From the NCBI RefSeq assembly GCF_035083965.1, contig NC_089724.1, forward strand, positions 23,898,474 through 23,962,473: a stretch of DNA of 64,000 nt, read 5' to 3'. The position numbers and the translations under genes were made by a program. Below the pieces are notes generated by a model. It was not told the origin of the DNA and did not search any database. It saw only the letters and a program-made list of their open reading frames with translations. Numbering within the stretch: the stretch's first letter is position 1; every line of letters begins with the position of its first letter. This document shows positions 1-62,600 of this stretch, in pieces. The stretch comes from Branchiostoma lanceolatum (lineage: Eukaryota; Chordata; Leptocardii; Amphioxiformes; Branchiostomatidae).

Positions 1-2620
1 CATTGTGGAAAAATCCCACCCATGGAAAAAATCGCACCAATGAAAATATTGCACTAGGCCCCATTTGGCCGGTTCGACTTCGTTTGGCCATGCACTTACC
101 TAATCGGCAGCCAAGTGAAAGTGCCGATCAGGTAGTCGCCCTAGGCAATGGTGTCAATGGACTTGTCTAAGTACTTTAACCCCGCCAGGTTGTAGAAGCG
201 TCCATCTAATTACAGAATGACATTTGTAATATGAGGAGGTGTAGCTGACAGGTTTGGTCGTAAATTAATCCCGCCACCCACTGAATATGCTTGATGTGAC
301 GTCAAGGACATATTGACAACGCAGGGCTCAAAATACTCTTGTTTCTTTTACCCAGCAGTGTTGTAAGTTTTTATGGGAGAGAGTGAGAGTGAGTGAGTGT
401 TGTAAGTTGTCAGAAGATCTACATGTACTTGTAATTTGGAAAAGCCTTTTTGCAAACACCCAATCTGCCTTACACAATAATAGTGTACTACATGTGTTGG
501 CACACATACACTGTCATACAGTAGTACAAGTACATATTACCTTCAGAAAGAAGGTTATAAATGTTTTTGGTAGCGTTTGTATGCGCTTAAACAGCATACT
601 CAGTTCATAACTCAAGAAGCTATATTTGGTACAAGGTTACATCTTGTCCTATAGAAGAAAATATTAGATTTTGGGCCCCCTGGTAGTTTTCAATGATCCT
701 ACCAGAGAACTTCCAGTTTTGATATCTCCTGTTCTTGACAAAATATGGTCATGATTTGGGTGGTAGATAGCTCTTATGCATGGGAAGAAGTGACACAAGT
801 TTGGGGTATACTAGCAGCTCCCTTCGGAACTGCAGGGGCATTTTAGTTGCAGTATGTTACTCTATAAGCTTTTGGATTGACCATCATGAATGCGAACCTA
901 AAATGTGCAATCTAGAAAAGTTTTTTGCAGGTTGCGGTTAGGTTGTTTGGAGCCCTGTAAGTGAGTGCTATGCAAAAGGACATATCTGGAATATTGGGAG
1001 AATAAATAACTTAAATATTTATCTACTCTAGTCATTCATCAAAGCTCAAGTTTGTCCTTACAATCATTCAAGTGATACAGTAAGTCTAAATGTATATTGT
1101 CAGATAGCACTAGTACTGGTTGTGTACTGCTTGACTTGAAATCACACAGGCAACTAAGTACGGAGGGTTACAGATGGATTCGCTGACAGACCAAATACTT
1201 TAGTATCCAGGCCCATACCACTAGCATGTCAATCATTGTCAGACATATATATCAACCCCCCTCCTTACCCTGCCAGTCAACTGCAAGACATTACACCTAC
1301 ATCTACATCAGTGATATCCCCAAATAACCCCATCAGGGGCCAAGTGGGGGGAGGGGGGTGGAGTTGAGGTCCCGGGCTAGGGCGGGCTGGCCTCCAGCCT
1401 GGCACAGAACAACTCAACGGTGGGAGCCGTCACAACCGTGCCAGGCAGGGCATTCCACTGATGAATGGTTTGGGGAAATATGAGCATATGAACAAAGATA
1501 GTTAAAGCACTTAAAGTGTTGGAAGAAAATAATAAAATCTTTGTTTTTCACTGTCTTGTCCAATAAGCTTTAATAGACAATTTAGATTGATCATAAACTT
1601 TCAAAGCTTGAGGCGGTTTTGGCACTGTGCATACTGACACTGAGAACAGCTGACTGAGAACCTCACACCAACTTCCAGATTCTGCCTGCAACTCTGGTCA
1701 AGAGTGCTCTTTCTTATCTCTTCTAATTTTGCTGACATTGTTGTACTTTGTTTTATGATGTACACCCAACATATGAGCACCTTAATTTCTAGATTAGCTA
1801 CATCAGTCCCAAAAATGAATTTCCAGCCCTACGTTCATCTATTGTAAATTGTAACCATCTACATATAATTAAGGTCTCCAGCTCGTAGGGAGGTAGATGA
1901 ACCATTGTCATCATCACTGCATTAAGGTCAGACAAACCTCCATGTAGTGTAGAACAGAGATGATGTGATCAAGCCCATCCATGGGAAGGTCATTAAAGGT
2001 ACGTATTGTAGAATCGTCATCTTAAGGTACATATCATAATATCTATAATCTAACTGTTGAAAATCAAATCAAAACAAAGTCGCTGTTTATGGTCATACAT
2101 CTGATCATAAGTTGGATCTACCTTTTTACACTGCACAGCCATATTCACAGCGTATAAATGTGTCTTTGTTGTGACGTCTTGAAATATGAGCAATTCCCAC
2201 CACTACTAGTACTAGAGTTGTCAGCCGTTTTGTCTGTTACCGGTATGTTCTGCTGCCAGTGAGTTTTCGTTAGGCTATGAAAACAAGAGAACTTTACACG
2301 GCTTGCTTTCTAGGGGTATCTTCGCTGGATAGCTTTCAAAGAACATTTGCAGCTAGGTGTGTTAAAGTTTAAAAGTGTGCCAGGTTGCTAGGTGTATTAC
2401 TGTAATATAACCTGCTGCCGTTGAATTGCTTGCCTGTGGAGCTTGTTTGTTTGGCCAAGGGGCGGTTATATCGGCTATTTGGATAAAGAAGCTGGTGTGT
2501 TACGCTGAAGGGTGGTTATACCGGCTATACAGATACAGAAGCTGGTGTGTCACGCCGAAGGGCCGTTAAACTGGCTATACAGATAAATATAGTGAAGTGC
2601 ATGTGAAATTGAGATATTAC
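1..2620. other. CNNM intron sequence with dispersed repeats
   Basis: This stretch lies downstream (minus strand) of the CNNM first coding exon and should be its first intron. I found no continuation of the CNNM reading frame here; the expected next exon, coding for the rest of the CBS pair, is not visible. About 640-960 carries a divergent copy of the repeat family that recurs at 13-16, 31 and 54 kb, recognisable by the phrase ATTAGATTTTGGGCCCCC. A G-rich patch lies at 1345-1380, and a short imperfect tandem repeat (GCTGGTGTGTnACGC...GGTTATA) at about 2440-2580. No protein-coding gene is supported. Confidence 0.6.
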
Positions 2621-3941
2621 CTTTCCGAAACTCCTCCAACATCACATCTAGCGTGGTGTCCGCAAACGTCCACGTTAGCTGGTGGTTGTAGAACTTGATG
2701 ATGGTCTTCAGCGGCGTGCAGTCGTCCGGGTCCACGAACGCCAGGTCTTTCACGAACAGCAGGGCCGTAATGTTGTCACGCTCTCCCTCGTACACCGGGA
2801 TCCGCGTGAAGCCCTGCTTCATGATCATCGACATCGTGTCGAAGTCTAGGATGGCCTCCATGTCCAGCATGAAGCACTGTTCCGACGGCGTCATAATGTC
2901 CGTCACCGTTTTCTGGCGCAGCTCCAGTGCACCCGAGATGATGTTGATTTCGTGTTTCTCGATCTCCTGGAACTGGTGTTGCATCTTCATCAGCTCGAGG
3001 AGTTTCTCTCGGCTGTAGACCGTGCCGATTTCCTGCCCCAGAATCCAGTCCAGAAGCTTGCTGATGGGGTACGCCACCGGCAACGTCAGGAACATGAAGA
3101 ACTTGGTGATCCATATAGTTCTGGCGCCGACGGCCAGGCCGTGGCGGGAGCACACGGACTGGGGCACGATCTCGCCGAATATGACAATCCCCGCGGTCGC
3201 ACCTATAACAGCTATAAGCCCAGATGAGAGGTCATCAAGCAAAATAGTCAACGTGTTGTTTACCAACACGTTTCCCAGGAGCAAGGTACACAGTAACAAG
3301 TTGCCATGAACTCTCAAGGGGGCTATCTTTCGCGCGTATTCCCGCTCTTTTTCGCTCCCGACGTTTGCCACGATCTTTAACTCCGTGGGGTCCAGTGCCA
3401 TGAGGCCGAGGTTCAGGCCGCTGAACAGGCCGGACAGTGTCAGTAGAATGATGATGAAGATTACCTGTAACCACAGAGGGAGGAGGGTCGACTCCACTTC
3501 TTCCTCTTTAGTGGTCAGCTGAAGGGACGTCGCGTTCCCCTGGTAGAACCAAGGCTCTAACTCTTCGGACTTGACGCATAAGAAGTACACTTCACCTTGC
3601 TCGAGCAGCTTAACCGTGACGCTGACGAGACCCACGGTGTCGGAGAAGTCCTCGGGAAGGAGGGGGAAGGGCTCCGATTTCCGCCAGTCGTTGCACGGTG
3701 CTCCCTTCACGTCGGGTCTCTTGGCGAAGGACAGCCAAGTTGAGCGCGTCAGGTTCGACCCGAAAACTCGCAGCTTCGTGGAGAGTTCCGCCACCACCTG
3801 GGCCCTGCCGTCGACCGTGGTGGCCGTGGGGTCGACGGGGGCCAGGCCGATGACCTCTGGCTGAGCGAAAACCGCAGTCTGGACGCAGAAAAGGAGAATA
3901 AACAGGAACGTAGGCCGAAGCCCGCCTGTGCTTTCCACCAT
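2621..3941 (-). CDS. CNNM: CNNM-family Mg2+ transporter (ancient conserved domain protein/cyclin M), first coding exon, partial
   Basis: Gives the first 440 residues of a metal transporter CNNM (human CNNM1-4, basolateral or plasma-membrane Mg2+ transport). A hydrophobic signal sequence spans about 1-27. An extracellular segment with N-glycosylation sites (NLT 63, NAT 136) runs to about 155. The DUF21/CNNM transmembrane module is about 156-330, with [15 protein letters not shown] and [13 protein letters not shown], both typical of the family. The acidic helix and the start of the CBS pair follow (TVTDIMTP at 345-352, [10 protein letters not shown] at 377-386). The exon ends at a clean donor (AAAG|GTAATA) in phase 1 after LEEFRK, exactly where the family continues into the rest of the CBS domain, so the remaining exons lie beyond the left edge. 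An in-frame ATG 36 bases upstream exists; I chose the start at 3941 because the signal peptide begins there. The membership call is firm; which CNNM paralogue is not resolvable. Confidence 0.95.
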
Positions 3942-4568
3942 CTTTGAAAAACATAGACCCACGTGACCTTCACGCACGGTACGCTGGGTAGGAATAGTCC
4001 AACATTTTATACTTTAGGGAGATGTATGAAAATCTTAAACCATCGAATAGAATTTGAAGTCTCTTTCTGAGAGTAATATGTTTGAAAATCAGCAGGATAG
4101 CATATAAGTTGTTGATATATATTTTTATGAGTAATACTATGGGCAGAGTAAAAATAAATATGTCATAAAATGATATAGTTTCACCCCACTGAAGAATAAG
4201 ATATTCCTCGTCAATATAACTTGGTCTTTTTTTTTTTACCCCGCAGAGGTTTCGCAACCGCGGGAACTTTTGGAAGGGTAAGAAGAATATTTTTGGAATT
4301 TTAGGTGGATAAACAAGATTTTCGTCCTTGGGAATACGACGTTTGGTGTTTCTAGGCACCTGGTGTTCCTTGACTTCAAAACGAAAAGCTTGTGCAGTTT
4401 GTCGGTGTTTACCTGTTTAGGTGACACCCCGGACGTTGAACCCACTGAACTTTTAAAGTAAACAACAACATCAGGAGGCGTGTCGGTTTAAAGTGCTCAC
4501 ATTACATGCATGTGATCCGCACAGAGATCAGAGTCTTCTCGACATTTTGTAGTGTGTGGAGCTCCAAC
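3942..4568. promoter_or_regulatory. divergent intergenic region between CNNM and the small secreted-protein gene
   Basis: The two genes are transcribed away from each other, with 627 bases between the two start codons. The stretch must hold both 5' UTRs and both promoters unless distal promoters exist. It is AT-rich at 3990-4220, with a run of ten T followed by ACCCC at about 4228. No ORF in it has family resemblance. I see no confident core promoter element. Confidence 0.4.
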
Positions 4569-10157: not shown

Positions 10158-13100
10158 TCAAGATGGCACACTCGGGTTGTCTGTCGCTGTTGACCTCCTG
10201 ACGGGGCTGTAGTACCACCCTGCAAGTGTGTCTGGGTGCACCCCAAGTTTGTAGGCCAACATCACACAAATGTTCCGAGCTGTCACCTGTATACATATAG
10301 AAAATGCTGCATTGTTAGCATGGTGACATATAAGAAGCGATTACTGAGAAAAGCCACAAAGTGTTTTTTTATCATGAACGTGACCTAATGTTAGCCTTGG
10401 CTGCATGTAGCCTCCTCTTGGCTTTATTAATTGTTCAGATTTCTGATTGTTCACCAGTACAGTCTATTAGAAACTCAGTGGACTGGAATCAGAACTGATA
10501 CTCCCCCTATGCAATTTGATGTGTTGACACAATCACTGCAATGTGTAGTCTGAGGATACAATTCTAAGTATCTGCTCTACCTGAAAATAACCGTGTTGCC
10601 TCCATTTCCGGTCGGATGTCAGCACAGGGTGGCCTTCTGCTATGGCCACGTGACCATGCTGTTTCATCAATGCCACCATCTTGACATCCTCCAACAGAAG
10701 GAATTCTGGGAAGCCTCCAACCTCTAGGAATTGTCTCTTTGTCATAAAGAATGCCTGATCTCCGTATGGAAGCTCTGTAATGGGTCACAAGTTCCTGATT
10801 TTTTAGAGAGAACATTTGCTTTTCTAGCTGATAGCATGACAATACTGTCGTCCAATAGTACTGGTACATGTAGATTCCATCGGTCATATTCCGGATAACT
10901 TAACAAATAATATAATGGGTAACGCATAGAAGCAAGCAGACATCACCATAACAACTTATATGTCTATGGCAGCCAAGAAAAAAAAAATATAATGACTTTT
11001 TAACTTTAGAATCCAGTCAAACGTGGTTACCATTAACTACAGATGTATCATTTTTAGAGTAGGTCAAGTGGTTAACAGCAAACAGCAAAACTATGGAACT
11101 CCTTTCCAGCCCACTGCTTTCCCCCGAATATAACCTACAAACATTCAAAACAAAGATACACCGCTATCTCTCACCATAGCTATATTAGTTCAAATAGTTC
11201 AATGCTTAGAAGTGTTCCCCTACGGCCTTGCATTGAGCGAGATAATTAGAAAAAAAACTATATAAGATCAAGTTTTGTGATATTTTCTTACCAAAGCGTG
11301 TTGATTTGAGGTTGGCATTCCACACCAAAAATCTCATCTGCAGTCGGAACCACCAGCTATCACTGCAGGAGCAAATGGAAATACACATGGGAAAAAAAGA
11401 AATTTCTAGCTTCTGTTCTTTCATACTGTTATTTATCCAGAAACGTACTAACTAATAAAGGTATCGTTAAATCACTTGTTGTAACTGGTGTAGGAACGAG
11501 GATATAGGATGTCAAAAACATTCATATTGATGCATCATATTAAGCATTTTTATTGATGCCTTAGGCTTAGGCCTTACTTTATATTATTGTTCTTATTTCG
11601 GCATTACTTCCGCAATCTAGCTTGAGGAGATGGCTATGAGAAAGCGTAGGTAGTCAGAAGACGATAGCAATTTCACCCAAAATTCAATCTTTGCTTTAAG
11701 CTAGTTCGGCAACCCTGGCGTGTACACGCTGAACCGATAAATGAATAGATAAGCACAAGGTTGACGTCAGTACCTGCTGATGCTTGATTCTTCAGCTGAT
11801 GCATCCTTCAGGCCGAATTGGAAGGCTCCCATCGACACTCCGGGCCTACAAAGAGTCCTGTGAGCAACACGTTGCCATGATGACGGCAGACGGGTGTCGG
11901 CATGCAGAAACAGCAAGTAGTCTCCTGATGCATGCTCGACACCGGTGTTCATCTGGACGGCTCTCCCTTAATTGTTGATTGATTGGCACATCAGAAATAA
12001 TCAAATTATAATGACCCCATTCGAAATGGAGTTACTGTAGCAAAGGGTCTAGACATATAATTACCGTAATAAGCCACTAATGTAATGAGTATGAAATTTC
12101 CTCCATGTATCACCAGTGAGAAGTAAGATTCCACATCAATAATGGAAATCAAGTTCTGATTCTCAAATGCCTCAAGTGGCTATAATGAAAGTATTGTCCG
12201 CTAAGACCACAGTGATGGCTTGTTCAACCCGGATGTTACCAGGTAAATTTGTAAAATTGTGTAACTATGTAATTTCACTCCCATAATTACCTTCGCGACG
12301 AATGGTTTCGTCGAGTAGGTTATTCGATGGTGCTTGTCTGTGTGTCTGTTAGTGAACAGAATAAGTCGAGAACGCCTGGATGGTTTGTTGTCGTAGTTGG
12401 TGTGTCGGTGTGTATGTGGCAAATCTCAAGATGATTAGATTTTGGGCGAAGTGTTTTGCATAATTAACGAGAAAAGTGTAAAAATGTGTTCAATTGTATG
12501 CTTTACTATGCGTTCTGGTTGCGACGTGTGGGCTGTATTGTTTCAGGGGATATTGATACGGGTAGATGGGGGGCAAAGTTGGTCATGAGGGGTCATGAGG
12601 GGTCATGAGGCAGGCAGGAAACGTCAGTCAATACTGCCAGGGACAAATTGGCTATCAGCCAGCTGTAGGGCAGATACAAGAGATAGACTTGCCCATATAG
12701 GCAGTAATGCTTTAAAGCACTAAAACAAGGGCTCAGAAAAGGATTCACCTTAATTGCAAGCCCCCAAAATTCTTATGCACCAGAAAGCCACATCTGTCTA
12801 CTTTAGAATCATGCAAAGAAAATAGACAGTTGACCAGCTCGTTCTCTCGTAACAGCTGACAGACGAAAACAATCGTCAACTTTGACCTACTCCCAGCCTG
12901 GAAGAGTCCACTCGGAGCATGTGAAACCAAACCACAAAGATATCTCCTTACACCAATTAAAAGACTGAAACATACAAATTTTGACCAAAGTTGGATATAC
13001 ACGGCCTTATATGAGTAAGAACAGTCATTAATGCAGTGCCACAGCATGGGAATACCGAGCATGTCTGTGTGTCTGTTAGTGAACACGATAAGTCGAGAAT

Positions 13101-16100
13101 TCTTGGAAGGATTGTCTTGGTATTTGGTATGTTGGTAGGTCTCGATGAAACCTGAAAATGATTAGATTTTGGGCCCCCTATCGGCTTGTTACGGTACTGC
13201 AGCGGAACTTCCTGTTATGATATCTCGTGTTGTGGACATGCTATGGAACTGATTTTTGAGTGGTAGATAGCTCGTTGGGCAGAGAGTAAGTGGTATAGGT
13301 TTGGGCCCCCTAGCAACTTTTTTGGAACTGCAGGGGTAGGTTTTGCTTCAGACTTTGAAAGGGAATAACTCAAGAAGGGCTTGATGGAAGGTCATGATTT
13401 TTTGCATGTACATAGCTTGAGCGATGATGTACATGATTGGATACTTATTATGCAAATCAGCAACTAATTTGCATAATTAATGAGGAAAGTTTATACATTC
13501 ATCAATTTCCATGATAGGACTCGCAAACATGTGACATATGTAACTGAGGAAGAGAGAAATATTAATAGATATCAGCTATGCAAATGAGAACCTCATTTAC
13601 ATAATTAATGAGAAAATAATATAACTCGAGATGGGCTTGATGGATGGTCATGATTTTTGGTATGTAGATAGCTTATGTGATGCTTTGTATGATTGGATGA
13701 TAATTATGCAAATCAGATTATAATTAATGAGGCAATTTTAAAAACCTGCTGTGTTCCATGATATGACTATTCAAATATGTGACATTTGTAACTGAGGAAG
13801 AGAGGAATGTCAATAGATAGAAATTATGCAAATGTAGGCCTAATTTGCATAATTCATGAGAAACTACTATCATTCCATACTAGTAAATAACGGCAATTTC
13901 ATACTTGTTGCATTTAGAAGTTGTGTGAATGTGAACACCATTGAATCAAATTATGCTAATAAGGAGCTTATTTGCATTATTGATGAAAAATGTTAGCATA
14001 ACCTTCTTTGTTAAGCTCATAATCATAACAAGGAGGTTTGGACAACTTATGTTATTTGGGTGAGGAGGATCAACTGGTATGATTTTTGATTGATGAAAAA
14101 CACTCCTAATACGTCAGTCATAAAGGTCAAAATCATTTCGCGAAGGTATGAGGTCGTAGAACTCTTGTTTTGAATGATTCTATAATCAGGAACTTCAATA
14201 GGATGATAGATTTTCTCCAGGGCCGTGAAGAATAGAGTGTGTCTTTAAAATCGGTTTCATATAATTGTATCCCCTTTGTTAGTTCATTCAAGACAATGTC
14301 TTTTAAGACATTCTTAACAAAGTGAAAATGATTACTGCTCAGAAGATTTTGTAATTAGGAAAAGCCTCAGGGCTGAGAAGATATGGCTGTATCTTGAATC
14401 GGTTCATTCACTGATGGTATATACTTAGTAGAAATGTAGTATATGAAGCAATGACTGGTCTTAGACAAATATATTACAACTAAATAGCATACAATGATCG
14501 CCATGCATCTTTTCTTTGATTTCTAACAACAATGGAGTGCACAGTGTGTATAGATTATATTCTACATTCTTATCGGTTAGGATTTAGTCATCGGTTTGAC
14601 ATGAGAAGTAGCTGTATTTTGTGGGGAAAATTGTTAAAGGAAGAGAAACAAGTTTTCAAATGTCATCATCAATTGTTCAAAAGTAGATCTATACGTACCA
14701 TGGTGTGAATGGAGATTTTTCTAATTAGACAATTAATTTGTAGTTTGCATGAACACAATTTGATAACGTTCCTTTGTTTATTTGATACAATTTCCATAAC
14801 GTTCGACTTTACAAAAACCTATGAAGTGCTCAATGTCCGGGCAACATTTTCAGATGTGTGGGAAATATAATAAAACTGATGATCGGTTAAAATACATGGT
14901 TTGAGGTCATTTATTTAATCGTATGACTGCTTGCTGATTGGTCAGTAAATGATATTTGGTCCAATCAGTTCACAGGATCGCTAGAGTGTTAAATGGTGTT
15001 ATTTCCAGTGGACAATTAAGTTGTTAAGGGTAATTTTGTGGACAAAGAATAATTACAGAAGATGAACCCATTCTCTGAGTCAGTAGCAGTGTCTGATATA
15101 CTCCAGGCGTTTTGACACGGTTGCCAGTCAAGAAAAACATATTTTTGTTTGCATTACGTATACTTTGCCATCTGACCACAGCTTGTCAAGGACCAAAGAT
15201 ACAAAAACGGAAGTCCTGCTGCAGTACCAAGCTTGGCCGTTGGGTTCACCACACCTGCTAAGTAAACGTACCAAATATCATCGCAATCCATCCAGAGGTT
15301 CTTAAGATATTCCGCCGTACACACACACACACACACAGAGACAGAGTGAAAACTATACCTCCGTAACTCTGTAAATAGAAATGAATTTTTTACAATCACA
15401 GACTACGCCCCATAATTTGGGGGTTCATTCAAGACAATGTCTTAACAATGTCTTAAAAAGGTGAAATCGATTACTGCTCAGAAGATTTTGTAGTTAGAAC
15501 AAGATTGGCAACATAAAAAGATGTTGCCATGGCGACGGTGGTCTCTGTTAACGTTTTCGTTTTTAGCCCACATTGAAATAAGGACCTTGCATAAGTGGCA
15601 TAAATCATATCAGTCGATCACCTTCTCTACCAAAATAACACAGGTTGTCCAATGAATGAAAATTTTGTTTTAAAGATATCATACCATTTCCTCTTAAATT
15701 ATGTAAATGAGGCCCTCTATGCAAGATTTGTGTCTAATAGTGGCCACATTTACTTAACTTCCAAATGGTGCAAAAATGAAATCCCCATCATTTACCACTA
15801 TGGATTTGAAGTATTTTGCTATCAATTATGCAAATTAAGTATCAATTTGCATAATTGATATCTATCGATATTCATCTCTTTCTCAGTTACATATGTCATG
15901 TGTTTGAGAGTCCTATAATAGAATGCAGCTGATTTATTAACTGTCCTCATTAATTATGCAAATCAGATATTGATTTGCATAATTGGCATATGATTATGTA
16001 AATCATCACTTAAGCTATCTACACACCAAAAATTATGATGATCTGTCATCCCCTTCTTGCGTTATTCTCTTTCTGAGTCCAAATAAGCTCCTGCAGTTCA

Positions 16101-19100
16101 AAAAAAAGCCGCTAGGGGGTCCAAATCTACAGGACATATTTTCCTAACAAAGAGCTATCCACCACTTAAAAAGCATGACTATAGCATGTTCAGAAGACGA
16201 GATTTGAAAAGTGAAAGTTCCCCTGCAGTACCATAGAAAGTTGCTAGGGGGCCCAAAATCCAATCATTACAAGGTCTCCCACAGACCTACCCACCTACAA
16301 AATATGAAGACAATACATCCAGGCATCCTTGAGTTATCATCCCATGGACTTTCACATTCCTGTACAATTCCTAGAATTCTTGCAATCTGCACACAATATA
16401 GTAAAAATTTGGCTCGCCCCTGAGGCGTCGCCAAAAAGCCTCAGGGCTGAGAAGATATGGCTGTATCTTGAATCGGTTCATTCACTGATGGTATATACTT
16501 AGTAGAAATGTAGTATATGAAGCAATTGACTGATCTTAGACAAATATATTACAACTAAATAGCATTCAATGATCGCCATACATGGTAGAAAGTCTAAAAC
16601 CCAAGAATGGAAGGGTTCTTTGCTACAGTATCCTCACAGCGCGGCAGTTACAAATGTACATAGAAAAGACGAAGTAAAGGCAGACAATCGCCTGACAGGT
16701 TCTTGATTAGCTAACCTCGAATCGCGGACTATGAGAGAGCCATGTGCATATGTCTGGGATTTTGGGTGATTTTTTTCTAGAATATTATCACTTTGGGACA
16801 TGAGGGATTTGCACTCAAGTGACCGAAAACTTTTATATACGTACTGAACATCAACAAGAAGTTACCAGGCAAATTTGAACTAGAAAAGGTCATTACAGTT
16901 TACAATGACAGGCCAGTGCACAGTATACACTTTAGGTTCTTTCAGGTTCGACCAACAAGTGTGGCAGCCTCTGTGACGCGTCGACGTAACGTGCAAACAC
17001 CATATTTTAAGAATTCGAAGGAACGTATCAAGTTATGTGTCAGCAGTGTACCGTCCTCCCCACACGCGCACGGTAAGTAAGGCCATGTTGATTTAAGATG
17101 GTGACAACCTCAGGGAACTAATGCGCGAGCGTGCGAAAAAAAATTGGTCTAAGTGGTCAGGAAGGTTGAACCAAATGACTAAACACACGGAGTATGGTAT
17201 GCCGAACATTAAAGTCTTCATTTTTGTTCTTTCACATTTTCTTCGACTTGAGAATTGACTTTGCCATTCTAGTAGTCATTAGTATCCATTTTCTGATTTT
17301 TTTTTGCAATTCACGGCATATATTTACTCATTTTGCATCTGCTTTGTAGGATTTACAGTAAGTTCAAAAATGTTTTGTGCGGAAATGGACAAAAACTATG
17401 CGCGCGCTGATGTCATCCATATAATCGAATCGACATGGCCTAATACTTGTGGCCTTATCCTCACCTGCATAGCACTGTCTATTGCCGATTTTACATTCTT
17501 CGCTTCGTTGAGAACAGGAATGATGACAGTCCAACTCGGAGCTAACAGTTCATGTCGACTGATGCCAGTCCTCAACTCGAATTCGTCAAGGTCATCTTTG
17601 GTGTCCTAGAAGGAACATTTATTTTTAATACATGTATATTCATTTAATCAGGCAAATTCTGTAGTTGATGGTGTCTCTAAATCACATTGTTTCCATTATG
17701 CAGTGCCACAGCAGCACTTACTTAAATTTTGCTGCAGAAGATCCAAAATATCTACAAACTTTGAGTCAAACGCTTTTATTTTTTGGCGATGCCTCCTGGT
17801 GGCGTGCCATGCAGGAAAGTCCACTCATTATTTTCAAAGCACTCACCACATCTTGTAGCCTGAAGGGCAACAGGTGACAGTGTATTCCCAGTTGTTCTGC
17901 CGCCTGTATCTGTTGTTGGAGCACACTGTTAGTTCCCCATGCAATCTCCTGAAATAGCTCATCTGGGAGAGAAAAAAAGGGGTCAAACTTTAACAGGTAC
18001 CAGTCAGGGTGTTACCGTTCACAAATTTAGATGCTTTTCAGTGAAATTTTGGGATTTTTTCACTCCCGATACTTTGTGGTCTAACCTGATGTATATGGCC
18101 AGGAAAATGACGAATCCGCCTCAATATACATGCACATTATAAATGCCAAGCCGGTATCCACAAGAAAGAAAAAGAGAAATTGACAAAAATGCATTTGGTC
18201 ATGCTGACACAACGTCATCATGATTTCACATAAGTAACTCTTCATTCAGAACAAACATTACAGATAACAATGAAGGAACGACAATCTATGGGGTGTTAAC
18301 ACCGTGACGTCACATTCGCCATGTTGGTTGTTTAAACCTGACAATTTGCATGTGTATAATGTCACAATGGCGTGACTGCAATGACACATACAAGTTCAGA
18401 TTTACTTGGCAACTTCTAAGTTTTAAAGCATTCAGCATGGCGAGCAAAACTTACGTCATAGTCACATGAATGGCAAACACCGGTACATGGCTGTCAAGTG
18501 TGGTGCAACGTTAGCAAACGTTAAGAAAATTATTACCTATATTATTCGTCCCTGTGTGTCGGTTCAGGCCGATGAGATAGTACCCACCATCCTTAGCAGG
18601 TCCAATGACGCAAGTGTTCTCTTCTTGGGTTGACTCCAATGTACTAAATGCCTCTTCCAAGACATCAGTAGTAAGGGCGGGTATATCGCTGCCAATCTGG
18701 TAGAAGTTCAGAACAATGACTTTAGAAACTGCACCACAGGTGTAATCTAATTATTTTCAGGTTTTACCAAAAATGCAAACGAGCTCCAAAATTTGTTTAA
18801 CATTTGAAGACATGCTGTTTACATTATTTGCTTATATTTGTTATATTCAACATATCTTTCGAATAGAAGACATCAAAATGGTCTAAAGCATGAGCATTTG
18901 AGAGTTTTTCGAAAGGACAAGAGCCCCGGGCTTTGAACAGCCTACGATGAATGTAACTGCACAGTATGGAGTAACATATTCAACGTACCAATACCACACT
19001 TTCAGTCCCGTCCATGAATGCATCATTGAAAGCATTTGCCATTTTGTGGCCAAGATCCTTTCCCTCCTGGATGCTCCACCAGAAATCCAGGTCTCTCCTA

Positions 19101-19940
19101 CGCCCTAACCAGTACCTCACATCGTCAGCGCTGCCTCCGACGTAGCGTACTTCAACAGAAACATCGCCTGGACGTCTCTTTTGGAGTTGTCCTGCTTCCC
19201 TCATTGCCTTGTTTGTCTTAACGGCAAAACAAATTGACACTTTGTTTCAAAGAAGCTTCTTAGTAACATTACAGGCAAATACGGTGCATTAGACTGCCCT
19301 CACAAGCTTGGAATCACGATCCAGTAAACGGATGAGCGGCCTAAATTGGAATATGACCTTCCTACCTGGCCGAAAGGATCTACTCTACTCTACTCTGATA
19401 TGTTAATTATTTCATAATTTGCATATTTCGTTAACGTCATAACGAAATTTGAACCATTTCTAAGTAATGAGCAGTATAGTGGTGTGGGGAAAACGGCCAG
19501 TAGGTTAGGGATTCTTTACTGTCACCCTGTCGTGTGGATGTCGGAACATAGGGCTACAACTTGGCTCGACTCCAGCAACGCAAGTAGCCTCCGTTGCAGG
19601 CTTTCTGGCCGACGCCGGCATTTATTTTCGGGGGGAGCACTGATTCGCGATTTTCAACATATCGGGCCAACGTCTTTTGCTGGAGAGATCTTAATTGTCT
19701 GCTGCGGCTACTGTCGTTTAACCAATAAGACGACAACTAACAAATACTCACCATGCAGAGTTGTGCCAGAGCGGCCCCCTTGTCACCAAGACCTGGTGTC
19801 AGTCTAGACTTGGTTTCGCCTGGTGACGGGTACCTCGTAAACACGATCAACCGGTGTCGTCTGCACCTCAATGGTCTCTTAACGTTCAAAATCGCGGCTA
19901 CAGTCGACGTAAAAGCTCCGATAGTGTATGGCGGCGCCAT
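10158..19940 (-). CDS. fused DUF2064 (TIGR04282-like) transferase and family 2 glycosyltransferase (TIGR04283-like)
   Basis: Exons on the minus strand: 19752-19940, 18989-19216, 18537-18696, 17847-17962, 17465-17605, [one not located], 11774-11966, 11292-11362, 10581-10774, 10158-10286. Residues about 29-231 form a DUF2064 domain: HRLIVFTRYPSPGETKSRL, DLGHKMANAF, LIGSDIPAL-like VVLIGSDIPALTTDV across an exon join, VIGPAKDGGYYLIGL, and LFQEIAWGTNSV. A short linker leads to a GT-A family 2 domain opening WTVIIPVLNEAKNV at about 256. The C-terminal exons encode RAVQMNTG, GDYLLFLHADTRLP, MGAFQFGL, LPYGDQAFF, EVGGFPE, LLEDVKMV, SDRKWRQHG and LAYKLGVHPDTLAGWYY. In bacteria these are separate neighbouring genes (rSAM/selenodomain-associated transferases 1 and 2, also called arsenosugar biosynthesis glycosyltransferases). 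All found joins match in phase except across 17464-11967, where about 35 residues holding the expected VVDGGS motif are missing. The substrate is unknown. Confidence 0.88.
12587..12610 (+). repeat. short tandem repeat, GGTCATGAGG x about 2.5-3
   Basis: Adjacent copies of GGGTCATGAG in intronic sequence. Confidence 0.6.
15318..15336 (+). repeat. (AC)n microsatellite
   Basis: A short run of alternating A and C inside the dispersed repeat copy of this intron. Confidence 0.7.
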
Positions 19941-27752: not shown

Positions 27753-29874
27753 ATGGCCTACGTCATCCATCCCAGGGAGTCCCGCCCCTTCAGCTTTCTG
27801 CACCCGGCCATGGGCGGGGCCCAGACACACCCCACAGTCACCGCCTTCCTGCAACTCAACACAGAAGAGATCATAATCAGGTACTAGTATTCTAATGCGC
27901 TTTTTTTTTCTTTTCTATTAAACCTTAGCATTGAAAATCATCTTCTGTAAGTTGTTGTTTGCATCGCCACAACAGGTAACCAATAAGTGTGGTGGGTTCT
28001 TTAACGTGCTCAAGAAGTGGTTGTCCTCAAACATTGCAATTAATATTGGACCTCTGCTTCATGTCCCACCAGAGGACATGCCTAATCGAAGTAGGGTACT
28101 CGTTTCCACTGAGTCGGTGGGGAAATCGGTGGTATGAGTCCTTACCAAGGGCACAACATTGCTGACATCAGCGATTGTCCAATGGCGTTGGCTATATAGT
28201 AAATGCGAATGTGTCCTGGATGGCAATTGTACGTCGCTATGGTTATTGATTCAATGAATCTGCTTTGATTCCCGGCGAACGGACACGGACCATGAACCAG
28301 CTTTCGCCCTACTTTATGTTGTATGTTGTAGAAATTGTATATTGTTGTACCATAAATATGTAATGATATATGTTGATAGAGTTATTAGGACTCAAATGAC
28401 TGTGTATCTCTGTTATATTGTATCTGACCCTTACCCCTTCCCTCATGACCTCAATGAAAAGCGGCCTGCGTGCCGATTTGAGCTTATCATGAATAAACAA
28501 AGGTTCAAACAAATAGTGACACTGATCTGTAACTTTCCTTGTTCTTTCAGATACTGCAATGAGCACAAAGATGTCCAACCGGAAGCTCTGTGGAACGTAC
28601 TGACGTACAAACCTAAACACTTCCGGTGGGCCGGAGCTGACCTGTTCCCGGGTGTCACCGCGGCCGGGCGGCATGAGATGGTGGTCCTGGAGGTCAACTC
28701 GTGTCCGAGCGGACAGAAGTACATGCCGCACGGACAGGGGATGGACAGCAGCTACCACAAACTCATGGGCGAGACATTCCGCGACACAGTTTCCAGCAAG
28801 TGTGACCCTTCCCTTATCAACAAGCCCCTGGCCGTAGTGCAGGACAAGAACCCAATAGAAAATAACGGTTACGCCTCGGCGCTAGCAGATATCACTAAAG
28901 AGCCTGTGTACGTGGTGGAGACTTATCTGAACCGGCCCAAAGAGCAGAACATCCGCTGGACGGATGGAGTCCTGGAGGTGAGAGACGTGGAGGGTCAGTG
29001 GCACGCCATCAGAGCCGCATTCCGCTACGTCACACAGAAGCCGTGGACCCGCATCCCTCTCACCACCAAGACAGTCGTCTTTAATCCGATCGCCTGCTGT
29101 CTGTCTGGTGGAAGAAACAAGCTTGTAGCTGCCCTGGCATATGAAGCCTTTAACAAGCAGCAGGAAGGTACGGGGCTTCGCGTCCGGATTCCCCGTACGT
29201 TCATGCGCGTGACCAAAGCCCAGATACCGACTGTCGTCCAGGCGCTACACGGAAAAGCCGTCATCAAGATTCCCTATAGCAACTGCGGCCAAGGCGTCTA
29301 CACCGTAACGTCACAGAAGGAACTGGACAAACTGATGGCTCTGGACCTTGGGTACGAGAAGTTCATCGTCCAGGCCCTCATTGGACACAAGAACTGGTCC
29401 AGCTCCCAGTGGCACCACGCCTGCACCATTCCTGACGAGGAGGGCAGGGAGTACGTTTTCGACACTCGCATGATGGTCCATGCGACCCCTGACGGTTTCA
29501 GGCCGCTCTGCACCTTCAGCAGACGTGCACACCTGCCACTGCCAGAGACCTTGGACGGGACCAAAGACGCCTGGGAGTACCTCGGCACGAACTTGTCCAT
29601 CAAGGACACCATCGGAGCCTGGCAGTCGGATACGGAGAGGCTTCTGTCCGTGGACCGCGAACCCTTCGAGACGTTGGGGCTCAGTCTGGATGACTTGGTG
29701 GACGGCTTCGTTCAAACCGTCATGGCGGTCACCGCCATTGACAAGATGTGCTGCCGCCTCGTTCGACCGGATAACACGTTCGACTTCGAAGAATTCGCGG
29801 TGCTAGCGGACGACAGGAAGATCCTGGAAGAAATCTACGATCTGTCGGAAACATCCGATGAACCAATGTACTGA
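27753..29874 (+). CDS. ATP-grasp-like protein of unknown substrate, two coding exons
   Basis: Exon 1 is 27753-27880 and exon 2 is 28551-29874. The join (AG|A, Arg) is in frame and gives 483 residues ending DEPMY. Visible motifs are MVVLEVNSCPSGQKYMP (Glu90-x-Asn92), KAVIKIPYSNCGQGVYTV (Lys278, Lys282, Gly-rich loop to 291), FIVQALIGHKNW and YVFDTRMMVH (Asp347, Arg349). A Lys followed by a small-residue loop, and acidic/Asn metal-binding residues, are what an ATP-grasp ligase or kinase would show, but the E-x-N motif precedes the loop here, the reverse of the usual order. There is no signal peptide or membrane segment, so it is probably cytosolic. Nearly all of the protein lies in one 1.3 kb GC-rich exon, unlike the neighbouring genes. 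The upstream frame of exon 2 stays open into intron sequence; I prefer the spliced start because the donor and acceptor are strong. The family call is tentative; the gene itself is secure. Confidence 0.85.
27990..28160 (-). repeat. SINE fragment, reverse orientation, in the ATP-grasp-like gene's intron
   Basis: Contains the reversed family blocks GTGGGTTCTTTAACGTG, CCACCAGAGGACATGCCTAA, CGAAGTAGGGTA and CCTTACCAAGGGCACAACAT in the same order as the fuller copy at 4898-5140. Confidence 0.6.
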
Positions 29875-59600: not shown

Positions 59601-62600
59601 TGGGAGTCGTTCAAGTTCACGGACACCCCGCTCCTGATTGACGGGGTGCTGAACGAGCCAGGGGAGGCCACGCTCATCATCCTGTGAGTAATCGACTTGC
59701 AGGGCCTTGTGGCTGGGGTTGTAGACTTAGAATCTGAAGGTTCTGGGTACGAATCCCTAGCAGTACCCAATGTTGTGCCCTTGGGAAAGGCACTTAACAC
59801 CTATTTCCTCACTCCACTCAGGTGAAAATGAGTACCTAGCTTCGGTTAGGGACATCCTCTCAAATGGGATGCAGTTTTGAATATGTAGAACAATTTTAGT
59901 ATTGTATAATTATGGAGAAGAATATTATAATTATGTATTCTGTATTTTCATCGGAACTGTGTAAACATGAACATTGTTTGTAAAGATTAACTGAGTTTGT
60001 TTGTTGCCCCTAGGGTATTTGGTCACCTCCAGGCGGACTCCCGCTGGTATGTGGTCAGACTGGACTTTGGCTCTATCCTGACAGCCAAGTGTACCGACCA
60101 GGACTACACCACCTGGGTGCCCAGTGACCAGGTAGGATGACCACTTTGCTCTGACCTTACAGAAATCTTCAACAAGGCTTCAATTTTGACTTAACACAAA
60201 ATTTCTAGAGTGACATTTTCATTTCCTATTGGTCAAACATAGGTGCAGCTAATTAAGAAAAAAACACTAATCACTGCAAATTCAAATAATGATTTGGCCT
60301 GGGTACCATCCTCTATAGTTTCCGCTGGTTGTCCCTTTTTATTTGGTCACGGTTAAAAGAGAGAGACATGGCTATGAATAACAATTAACAATGTTTATCA
60401 TGTTTTAGATTTAAAGGTTTTGAATAAGTTTATCCTTTGTTAACTTTGTTAACCTGGCCCATTTTGATCATACTAGTTTTGGAAACCAATAGCAAACTCA
60501 ATGTTATACATGTACATATTAATCCCTGTTCACTGCAACAATCAAGATCAAAGTAGATTAATATTTTTTCCATTATGGGTTTTAAAGCAGCTGATAAAAT
60601 CGAGTCATGAAATGTTTTATGCTGTACAGATTGGACATTGGAAACATGTCTATTTTGTATTTCTACATAGCTGGGGAGACAGTGTTTGCTAGGTGAAAGG
60701 AAAGTATATGAGAGGAGGAAGATGGACTCAGAATGTTACAACGGAAGGAACTACGAGAGAGAAATCAACATGACCGTATGTCAGTGTACGCCCGAGGACT
60801 TTGAGTGGTAAGGGCAACAGTCAATTATTGTCAATCTCTCTGAAAACAGAGGTATTCTAAAGAGTTTGTATGTTTGTTTGTTTGTTTGTTTTGGTGTGTG
60901 TCTGCAGTTTTATGAATATTGAGGATCTAAAGCAAAAGTGGTAATATATACTTGGACAATTGTAAATGTGGTTAGGCTTGCTTTAATGATTTCCAAATAA
61001 TGTAGAGTGACTAAACAGGGAAAAGATGTACTAGTATACAGAAATACCACATTTTGATGGCCAATCTTATTGAAAATAAATTTGACTATGTTTTAGCACA
61101 TCAAAACCAAAGCAGCCACAGATGTCATAAAATGAAACTTTTGTTTCAGTGACTATGGTTTTCAGCGGTCCGGTGCAAACAGGACGGTGTGTACAGTTAC
61201 TGACTGGTTCGACCCAAACCAACCGCTAGGTGAATGTCCTGAGGGACACTTCTTCCTCAGGAGCTCTGGGTAGGTCCATACATGTTGTACATTTCCAGCT
61301 TATCGTAAGTAAATATTCTTGAGACTTTTTCATACCAAACCATCATACCAGGTCATACCAAAGACTTGAAAAATGGTACAGACAGCTTTCTCTGCTTAGC
61401 ACTCAGCGTTTTGTTTTTTTTCAAATGAGAAAGAGTATGGTAGTTGAACACTCTACACTACCAGAAATAGGCACTATCCCAATAGACCGAAAGGCATGTG
61501 AAGGATTCTAACTGTATTCAACTTTTGAATTATCAGGTATAGGAAGATTCCATCTGACAACTGTACAGGGGGTGTAACGGATCAGTACAAGCCCAGAGAG
61601 GTGCCGTGCCCACTGCAGAAGGCGGAGGGACTGCACCTGACAGCCGACGTGGGACCTGCAGCCCCCACACATACCAATGTAACATTCCACCTCACCCAGG
61701 ACAGGGTAAGTGCAGCTTATTCTTCCCCTGCTAGGGTAGTCTTTTTGGTCCACAGTTGCAAAAGGTATGGGTTTAGGTACATTGTAGAAGGGACAAAGTT
61801 AACTAGCATTTGAATGCAGTCGTTATATCTCTGTCGCACAGCAGGGAAAATGATTGACCGACGAGTCTGCAAGCTCTAAGTGACGTTTTCAGCAATATGC
61901 ATAGTGTTCTCTCAATCATAGCGAGATTTTTAGAGATCAGTCAATGTTCGCAAGTCTCTGAGTCCTGTCCAACGTGATGAGGTAGATTTTTAGGTGAAAA
62001 ACATGCTCGATTCTCTGGGGATTTTAAATTCGGTAGCCTTCTACCAATCAACAAATACGGCTGAAGCTTGTTAACTTTGTGACAGTAGGATGTTTATCAT
62101 AACAATTTTTCATTAATCTTTTACCTTCAGGGGTCTAAAGCGAGCACCGTCTACACCTGGGACTTTGGCGACGGTGTGGTGACCTCCCAGCCAGGTCTGA
62201 GGAACAGCTCCACTCAGGTGCACAGCTACGACACGGCGGGGACGTACGCGGTCTCCATGTCGGCCAACAACTCCGCAGGGTGCACCTCCACCACCATGTA
62301 CATCAAGGTCAATGGTAGGTACATTATTAGTGGGGTCCTGTGGGTGTTTGGCCTAGAACCCAGATGTCCTTGGTTCGAATCCTGTCATGCCACCGATCTT
62401 GTGCCCTTGGGAAAGGCATTGTACATGACGTTCCTCACTACACCCAGATAGTTTATTTTGCTGGACTCTGACATTTTTTTCAAGACCAAAAGCAGATGTC
62501 TGGTACATGTATTTTATAGCTCAGGTATACTCCCTTAACTCTGAGCCTACATGTACATGTAAGAGCATATTAAGTCTTGTGTCCAGAACAATTGAGTCAG

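Follow-up and report, generated by a model that had tools for sequence, protein, structure and literature searches.

A spliced animal gene joining regions related to the bacterial TIGR04282 and TIGR04283 families

MTX-P-C50 is made by MtxS (Rv0539) and transferred by MtxT (Rv0541c), as stated in a figure legend of PMC8780516. Two bacterial families bear more directly on the gene described here. TIGR04282 (DUF2064, glyco_like_cofC) is a hypothetical equivalog of NCBIfam with a cut-off of 134 bits, and TIGR04283 (GT2, glyco_like_mftF) is an NCBIfam equivalog with a cut-off of 182 bits. TIGR04282 is labelled 'arsenosugar biosynthesis glycosyltransferase'; its sequence and fold relatives include nucleotidyltransferases, and its function is putative. 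Rv0540, which lies between Rv0539 and Rv0541c, is presumably a DUF2064 protein. No biochemical study of TIGR04282 or TIGR04283 reactions was found in the open-licence literature.

The DNA analysed (the window) was a stretch of 64,000 nucleotides from Branchiostoma lanceolatum. We favour, with moderate confidence, the reading that it carries a nuclear animal gene derived from an already fused bacterial TIGR04282-TIGR04283 gene, whose product probably activates and transfers a 5-modified pentose.

Gene model and domain assignment

Nine exons, numbered 1 to 5 and 7 to 10, were found on the minus strand between positions 10158 and 19940. Exon 1 (19752..19940) was defined by its reading frame (tblastn 3.8e-9) and encodes the ATG, a 29-residue leader and then LIVFTRYPSPGETKSRL. 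Together with exon 2 (18989..19216; tblastn 7.7e-10) it belongs to the nucleotidyltransferase half. Exon 3 (18537..18696; tblastn 1.1e-12) contains IGSDIPALT and VIGPAKDGGYYLIGL, and exon 4 (17847..17962; tblastn 4.5e-5) runs from ELFQEIAWGT through the end of the DUF2064-type domain. Exon 5 (17465..17605), detected by hmmsearch over all window frames (2.4e-5), encodes the linker and the strand with which the GT2 domain begins (WTVIIPVLNEAKNV). It is followed by a repeat-rich interval of 5.5 kb (11967..17464), in which the expected exon 6 was not found. Exon 7 (11774..11966; tblastn 1.9e-13) has a weak acceptor (caatcaatcaacaattaag) and contains RAVQMNTG and FLHADTRLP. Exon 8 (11292..11362), a 71 nt piece of the GT2 half lacking a tblastn match of its own, was placed by frame, splice sites and alignment. 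PYGDQAFF, LLLEDV and TSDRKWRQHG are located in exon 9 (10581..10774; tblastn 9e-13), and exon 10 (10158..10286; tblastn 9.2e-5) extends from ARNICVMLAYKLGVHPDTLAGWYY to the stop codon.

The coordinates given by an earlier note on this DNA coincided exactly with the start ATG at 19940 and the stop TGA at 10158, and the minus strand carries all five signatures that it quoted: one each in exons 1, 3 and 7 and two in exon 9. Seven GT-AG introns were placed in addition to the gap interval. Their phases are consistent, the exons are small, and no stop or frameshift occurs in the nine exons. The reading frames agree with the earlier proposal of one spliced gene, which had overlooked the absent GT2 exon. 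Leader residues 1-29 are basic and include no acidic residue; from this composition, a role as a mitochondrial leader was considered.

The N half scored 178.6 bits against TIGR04282 (E 1.1e-52), above the family cut-off and over all 189 positions, and it matched DUF2064 with an E-value of 1.7e-29. It also matched the sequence of 3cgx across residues 31-239 and, weakly, the CofC models. Exons 7-10 scored 149 bits against TIGR04283 (E 1.5e-43, positions 60-221 of 221). This value is under the cut-off and comes from exons 7-10 alone, without exons 5 and 6; exon 5 ended the other query, for which TIGR04283 was not reported. Both matches lie far beyond chance, and the kinship with the two families claimed previously was borne out by these scores. 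The second acidic motif of GT2 (FLHADT) and the PYGDQ/ED motifs are present in exons 7 and 9, whereas the first nucleotide-binding motif is absent as assembled.

Bacterial relatives and their gene neighbourhoods

Genome contigs were scanned with a fused query; of 496 confirmed loci the best 80 were kept, so the share of fused genes among them is biased upward. Both domains were found in one frame at 24 of these 80 loci, and in the same order as in the window at 23. The same-order fusions, among these best 80 of 496 loci, are spread over several bacterial phyla. The fusion is therefore not the animal's own, contrary to what the earlier note implied, and its formation by the animal was rejected. 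The note's statement that the two families are neighbouring genes in bacteria agrees with the loci L001, L002 and L006. In the window, exon order and phases give both domains from N to C terminus, as in the bacterial fused proteins.

A tree of 31 rows was computed for the N and C halves of both-domain loci, leaving out L023, L027, L030, L064, L073 and L080 (long branches) and L003, L072, L075, L078 and L083 (weak, partial or opposite-strand partners). The window protein fell in a group that also comprised 20 fused rows and 7 pairs; a split with support of 100/100 set this group apart from 3 separate-gene proteobacterial pairs. Its sister group was L018, L013 and L021, with support of 94/91 that is not decisive. 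The fused state required five changes and did not form one clade, which indicates more than one event of fusion or splitting. A tree of 69 rows from the N half only, in which the window protein joined a seven-row set with long branches (support 96), was judged unreliable. The highest identity to a bacterial tree row was 45% for both halves and 47% for the N half. No relative of the N half was found in viral contigs. The predicted structure of the L013 fused protein had a mean pLDDT of 91.5. Its first PDB match was 3cgx, a putative nucleotide-diphospho-sugar transferase; the next were mostly glycosyltransferases, and the 3-phosphoglycerate guanylyltransferase 7p97 appeared at rank 36.

Columns were called near-invariant when identity across 30 bacterial rows reached 90% or more. 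The window protein has the same residue in 73 of the 93 such columns and differs in 13; the other 7 fall inside the missing exon. Five of the 13 changes are non-conservative (G to K, L to A, C to I, T to Q, P to L).

The Acinetobacter portensis plasmid (L002) carries a cluster of ArsS, TIGR04283, TIGR04282, ArsM-like and MTAP genes. At L006 both families occur with MTAP and, by blastp, with ArsS and ArsM-like genes. L001 has MTAP, and ArsS was absent from the stretch examined there; with L025, MTAP lies beside or near both families at four loci. In L013, a near relative of the window protein, the fused gene, a PNP gene and ArsS stand in a row. Misses in this blastp search are weak evidence, since its queries were ten proteins and the loci were short. 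When single proteins from A. portensis, B. glumae, Roseomonas and Cupriavidus served as tblastn queries, the window gave no ArsS, ArsM or MTAP match (best E 0.25).

Candidate substrates and integrity of the gene

In the reading that we favour, a bacterial fused gene would have been acquired long ago and since divided by at least eight introns. Its N half would act as a CofC-like nucleotidyltransferase, making a nucleotide sugar from a 5-substituted 5-deoxypentose-1-phosphate. The sugar phosphate may come from an MTAP/PNP-type phosphorylase acting on a 5'-modified adenosine, and the GT2 half would transfer the sugar; the likely acceptor is a lipid or a glycerol-type alcohol. For many bacterial relatives a dimethylarsinoyl substituent, introduced via ArsM and ArsS, is probable. 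The bacterial neighbourhoods suggest adenosylation, phosphorolysis, nucleotide activation and transfer, in this order, and thus offer a testable order of steps for the reactions of both families.

The pentose may carry another substituent. Methylthioribose-1-phosphate, for example, is produced by host MTAP in any case, and could be converted to a methylthio-sugar conjugate, by analogy with MtxS and the methylthioxylose that caps mycobacterial lipoarabinomannan. The MTAP genes near both families are consistent with this, as is a sample from the phylum of G022, where ArsS above the cut-off is missing from 12 of the 14 genomes that carry TIGR04282. A precedent is the MtxS/MtxT pair (PMC8780516). 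However, the genomes of fused relatives contain ArsS above the cut-off more often than not (15/24, among the best 80 of 496 loci), and the L013 phosphorylase scores as a purine-nucleoside phosphorylase, not as MTAP. We consider a methylthio-sugar product conceivable, if on balance improbable.

It is possible that the animal enzyme uses arsenic. It would then act in arsenosugar or arsenosugar-lipid synthesis by activating and transferring the sugar. Methylation by host AS3MT would be followed by an ArsS-type radical SAM step (its own, a symbiont's or from diet), and the product, 5'-deoxy-5'-dimethylarsinoyl-adenosine, would be converted by a host phosphorylase to the sugar phosphate that the enzyme uses. 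ArsS exceeded the cut-off in 38 of 50 relative-bearing genomes drawn from the best 80 of 496 loci, compared with 1 of 14 controls, and L013 unites the fused gene with PNP and ArsS. Among 145 genomes in the class of G006, 93 had TIGR04283 and ArsS, 8 TIGR04283 only, 15 ArsS only and 29 neither (Fisher p 1e-12, uncorrected for kinship); this table was made by hand from best E-values, and its margins, 101 and 108 of 145, fit the tallies. On the other hand, four of the eight TIGR04283 genomes without ArsS carry TIGR04283 within an open frame 467-481 residues long, which may be a fused gene. ArsS was under the cut-off or absent in 9 of the 24 fused-gene genomes; L018, which belongs to the three rows nearest the window protein, comes from one of these. 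The genomes of the phylum of G022 also argue against an arsenic link, and by them the family name was ruled out as proof of an arsenic role; that sample, from another phylum, was scanned for TIGR04282 and the class for TIGR04283, so the two results are not the same test. The window itself gave no match to the partner genes in the tblastn search with single queries. A role in arsenosugar synthesis is doubtful for the animal enzyme. Slightly less probable still is the specific form in which its substrate is dimethylarsinoyl-ribose-1-phosphate and a lipid or glycerol acceptor receives the activated sugar; the animal's arsenosugars or arsenosugar lipids would then be partly host-made.

A different reading takes the locus as a decaying copy from which exon 6 is truly lost, so that only the nucleotidyltransferase half could work, or as a young pseudogene. 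The end of exon 5 is in phase 0 and the start of exon 7 in phase 1. Bridging them requires an exon of 3n+1 nucleotides, which was expected to encode about 35 residues with VDGGSxD. Exons 5 and 7 joined directly are out of frame and meet a stop after five codons. Neither a four-sequence nor a 60-sequence profile found exon 6 among the frames of 15 residues or more in the window, and tblastn of 25 both-domain bacterial frames against the window did not find it either. VDGGSxD, the first nucleotide-binding motif of GT2, was absent from the minus strand of the interval and from both strands of 9-21 kb, and exon enumeration with loose splice rules gave three exon 6 candidates, none with this motif. 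Since neither strand yielded exon 6, the GT2 domain encoded by the assembled window is incomplete. The weak exon 7 acceptor also fits decay. An alternative in-frame acceptor of exon 7 (SAMQ|MNTG) is available, but its use omits the core of the GT-A fold. The interval contains large repeats, which are compatible with true loss. Against decay stand the uninterrupted frames of the nine exons and the retained near-invariant residues, with 13 changed outside the gap. Given how well the remainder of the gene is conserved, dropout of exon 6 from the assembly in a repeat-rich intron is more likely than loss from the animal. We regard a decaying copy as rather unlikely.

That the assembly contains a contaminant or a bacterial insert here is highly improbable: the relatives found were all bacterial, from collections that were non-eukaryotic, but the introns refute it in practice, the splice phases are consistent, the best identities to bacterial rows are those given above, and the window also encodes CNNM and PKD domains, which are animal-type neighbours, in agreement with the earlier description of an animal gene.

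If the gene is a conserved animal copy of a bacterial fused gene, some animals retain bacterial machinery for making an unusual sugar conjugate. Such a copy would also provide a direct test of whether all animal arsenosugars derive from diet.

Comparison with known systems

The A. portensis cluster resembles the animal locus in that both families adjoin. It differs in having separate genes in the order TIGR04283-TIGR04282 and a more distant place in the tree, and its partners have no tblastn match in the window. Compared with the bacterial fused proteins (L013, L007, L016, L018 and L012), the window gene is spliced, has a basic leader and an insertion near the exon 7/8 junction, and lacks a detected VDGGSxD exon; the domain order and the near-invariant motifs are common to both. 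MtxS and MtxT (PMC8780516) represent a system in which a lipid-phosphate-linked 5-modified pentose is made by a transferase, and by analogy this may serve as a working model for the animal enzyme.

The spliced gene and its product

The gene placed at 10158..19940 by the earlier note was recovered on the minus strand with exactly these limits, from an ATG at 19940 to a TGA at 10158, and nine exons (1 to 5 and 7 to 10) were located. All seven introns between neighbouring placed exons, as well as the donor of exon 5 and the acceptor of exon 7, showed GT/AG ends, and phases were consistent from exon to exon except at the gap between exons 5 and 7, in agreement with the view that this is one spliced gene. 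Stop-free translation gave 278 residues for exons 1 to 5 and 194 residues for exons 7 to 10. Profile searches bore out the assignment of the N-terminal half, with TIGR04282 at 178.6 bits (cut-off 134) and DUF2064 at E 1.7e-29; exons 7 to 10 matched TIGR04283 at 149 bits over model positions 60-221, under the cut-off of 182. The host is, in our reading, an animal; the gene is a genuine animal gene, spliced and of bacterial descent. Its product is probably bifunctional, combining sugar activation and transfer.

Alignment of the window protein with 30 bacterial rows gave 93 columns with 90% or more identity between the bacterial sequences. At these columns the window protein had the same residue in 73 and a different one in 13, and the remaining 7 fell within the missing exon. 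Of the 13 substitutions, five were non-conservative (G→K, L→A, C→I, T→Q and P→L), and several others, including T→S, R→K and L→M, were conservative. The pattern looks like that of a gene under long constraint and is no measure of present function.

The predicted structure of the protein from L013, a bacterial locus with a fused gene, had a mean pLDDT of 91.5 and a pTM of 0.87. Its first PDB match was 3cgx (TM 0.79 by target length), followed mostly by glycosyltransferases, with the 3-phosphoglycerate guanylyltransferase 7p97 at rank 36. These matches suggest that the label glycosyltransferase may misname the reaction of TIGR04282. Listings of open-licence literature yielded no characterization of TIGR04282/DUF2064 or TIGR04283, or of an animal gene, and a term search of PMC13342648, a compendium of metazoan HGT, returned no arsen- word and no DUF2064 in its main text.

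Elsewhere in the window, domain searches detected an open frame for a CNNM-type metal transporter with an Ig-like N-terminal domain (2553-4013, minus strand) and a PKD domain, probably a piece of a larger gene (62089-62448, plus strand). No tRNA and no Rfam family above gathering score were found in the window. For an open frame of 538 residues at 28258-29871 (plus strand), the best PDB hit reached E 0.24, and searches of Pfam (E 0.01) and plasmids (E 1e-3) gave no match; 15 bacterial genomes likewise gave none, a negative that carries little weight. Its stretch KIPYSNCGQGVY is reminiscent of ATP-grasp proteins.

The interval between exons 5 and 7

In the bacterial relatives compared, about 35 residues separate the first GT2 strand (IIPxLNEA) from GRAxQMN, with VDGGSxD mid-way. 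In the window the first GT2 strand lies in exon 5 and the equivalent of GRAxQMN stands at the start of exon 7, 5.5 kb away. Because exon 5 has a phase 0 end and exon 7 a phase 1 start, an exon between them should be 3n+1 nucleotides long; direct joining of the two leads to a stop after five codons. On the L013 model the equivalent piece (residues about 230-264) takes in a core strand and the strand after it, with the DGGS turn and a helix in between. Exon 6 did not emerge from exon enumeration, from motif searching of both strands across 9-21 kb, from two profiles (built on 4 and 60 sequences) run against every window frame of 15 residues or more, or from tblastn with the 25 both-domain frames as queries.

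The window contains no N characters. We prefer loss of exon 6 in the assembly, because the rest of the gene has no other break; a real deletion is a possible, less favoured reading. The GT2 half can be called intact only once exon 6 is found. The interval itself is repeat-rich, with inverted arms of 56-237 nt within 12332-16583 (e.g. 13087-13323 and 16102-16338); in addition, 93 bases recur exactly, in direct orientation, at 14360 and 16434. The repeats of 12332-16583 are perhaps a mobile element.

Bacterial relatives and origin

A scan of genome contigs gave 496 confirmed loci, and the best 80 were used. Both domains lay in one frame in 24 of these 80, a share that is biased since the query itself is a fusion, and in none of six plasmid loci examined alongside; an extra short minus-strand frame at L009 matching both domains was left out of the locus count. 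The order was TIGR04282-TIGR04283 in 23 and reversed in L080. Among the best 80, fused loci belonged, going by record titles, to delta-type bacteria, Planctomycetota, Kiritimatiellota, Lentisphaerota, Verrucomicrobiota, Actinomycetota, Omnitrophota, Acidobacteriota (L080) and cyanobacteria. The window gene belongs to a fused kind that bacteria already have.

The tree of both halves comprised 31 rows, without L023, L027, L030, L064, L073 and L080 (long branches) and L003, L072, L075, L078 and L083 (weak, partial or opposite-strand partners). In it, one side of a 100/100 split held the window, 20 fused rows and 7 separate pairs, and the other held three proteobacterial pairs encoded on plasmids. 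The rows nearest to the window were L018, L013 and L021 (support 94/91). The N-only tree differed, placing the window elsewhere, among long branches. The fused label required five changes on the tree of both halves, which indicates that fusions or splits arose more than once. The highest identity of the window to a bacterial row was 45% over 335 columns for both halves and 47% for the N-terminal half. We infer that the gene was acquired long ago in an already fused form.

Bacterial neighbourhoods and a possible arsenic link

The order at bacterial locus L002 was the radical SAM protein ArsS (471.1 bits, cut-off 300), TVP38/oxidoreductase, DUF547, TIGR04283, TIGR04282, an arsenite-methyltransferase-like protein below its cut-offs, a phosphate transporter and the phosphorylase MTAP. 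L006 held ArsS and ArsM-like genes (blastp), TIGR04283, TIGR04282, MTAP, a second radical SAM protein and DUF547, and L001 held MTAP, TIGR04283 and TIGR04282, with no ArsS match within the stretch examined. At L013:6001-9460, the locus of one of the nearest fused relatives, three genes stand side by side: the fused gene, a purine-nucleoside phosphorylase (331.6 bits against a cut-off of 218) and ArsS (408.6 bits against 300). This compact set is a candidate for the late steps in arsenosugar synthesis. Single blastp queries of available locus DNA found no partner of these kinds in most of the best 80 of 496 loci. Other radical SAM proteins were near in L004 and L006. At L019:3718-7350 an ArsM-like frame, an Rv1681-like radical SAM frame and the fused gene follow in overlapping order (blastp), the Rv1681-like frame directly before the fused gene. 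ArsS was not over cut-off in that genome, and L019 perhaps represents a sister pathway with another adduct.

These neighbourhoods suggest a pathway. Arsenic would be adenosylated by a radical SAM enzyme, an activity described in PMC12159101; a phosphorylase would then swap adenine for phosphate, a CofC-like enzyme would form a nucleotide sugar, and the GT2 enzyme would pass its sugar on.

ArsS was searched in the genomes of 50 of the best 80 of 496 loci, including all 24 fused. It exceeded the cut-off in 38 of the 50 (15/24 fused, 23/26 others) against 1 of 14 controls; three of the nine fused-gene genomes lacking it (G001, G008 and G022) have partial or sub-threshold matches. In 145 genomes from the class of G006 (titled Phormidium tenue, genome of L012), TIGR04283 and ArsS were both over cut-off in 93, TIGR04283 only in 8, ArsS only in 15 and neither in 29 (Fisher p 1e-12, kinship uncorrected). 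Four of these eight TIGR04283-only genomes carry TIGR04283 within a 467-481-residue open frame, perhaps a fused gene without ArsS. In the same sample, 25 genomes, counted from the listing, carried TIGR04283 over cut-off at two places; usually one scored ~250-285 bits, often within an open frame of 430-555 residues that is perhaps fused, and the other ~195-220 bits; the two copies may be paralogues with different roles. Among 80 genomes from the phylum of G022 (titled Actinobacteria, genome of L028), 14 passed the TIGR04282 cut-off, and the 2 that passed the ArsS cut-off were among those 14; this sample probes TIGR04282 and the class sample TIGR04283, and the two are not directly comparable. 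These counts, with the other radical SAM neighbours at L004, L006 and L019, point to an asymmetric association, in which ArsS seems to accompany these transferases more than the transferases accompany ArsS.

An arsenic role of the window gene is possible but unproven. Host MTAP yields methylthioribose-1-phosphate, which makes that compound, in an animal, a natural candidate for an alternative substrate. A precedent for such non-arsenic use is methylthioxylose in mycobacterial LAM, the lipid-linked sugar of which is made by MtxS, as described in PMC8780516.
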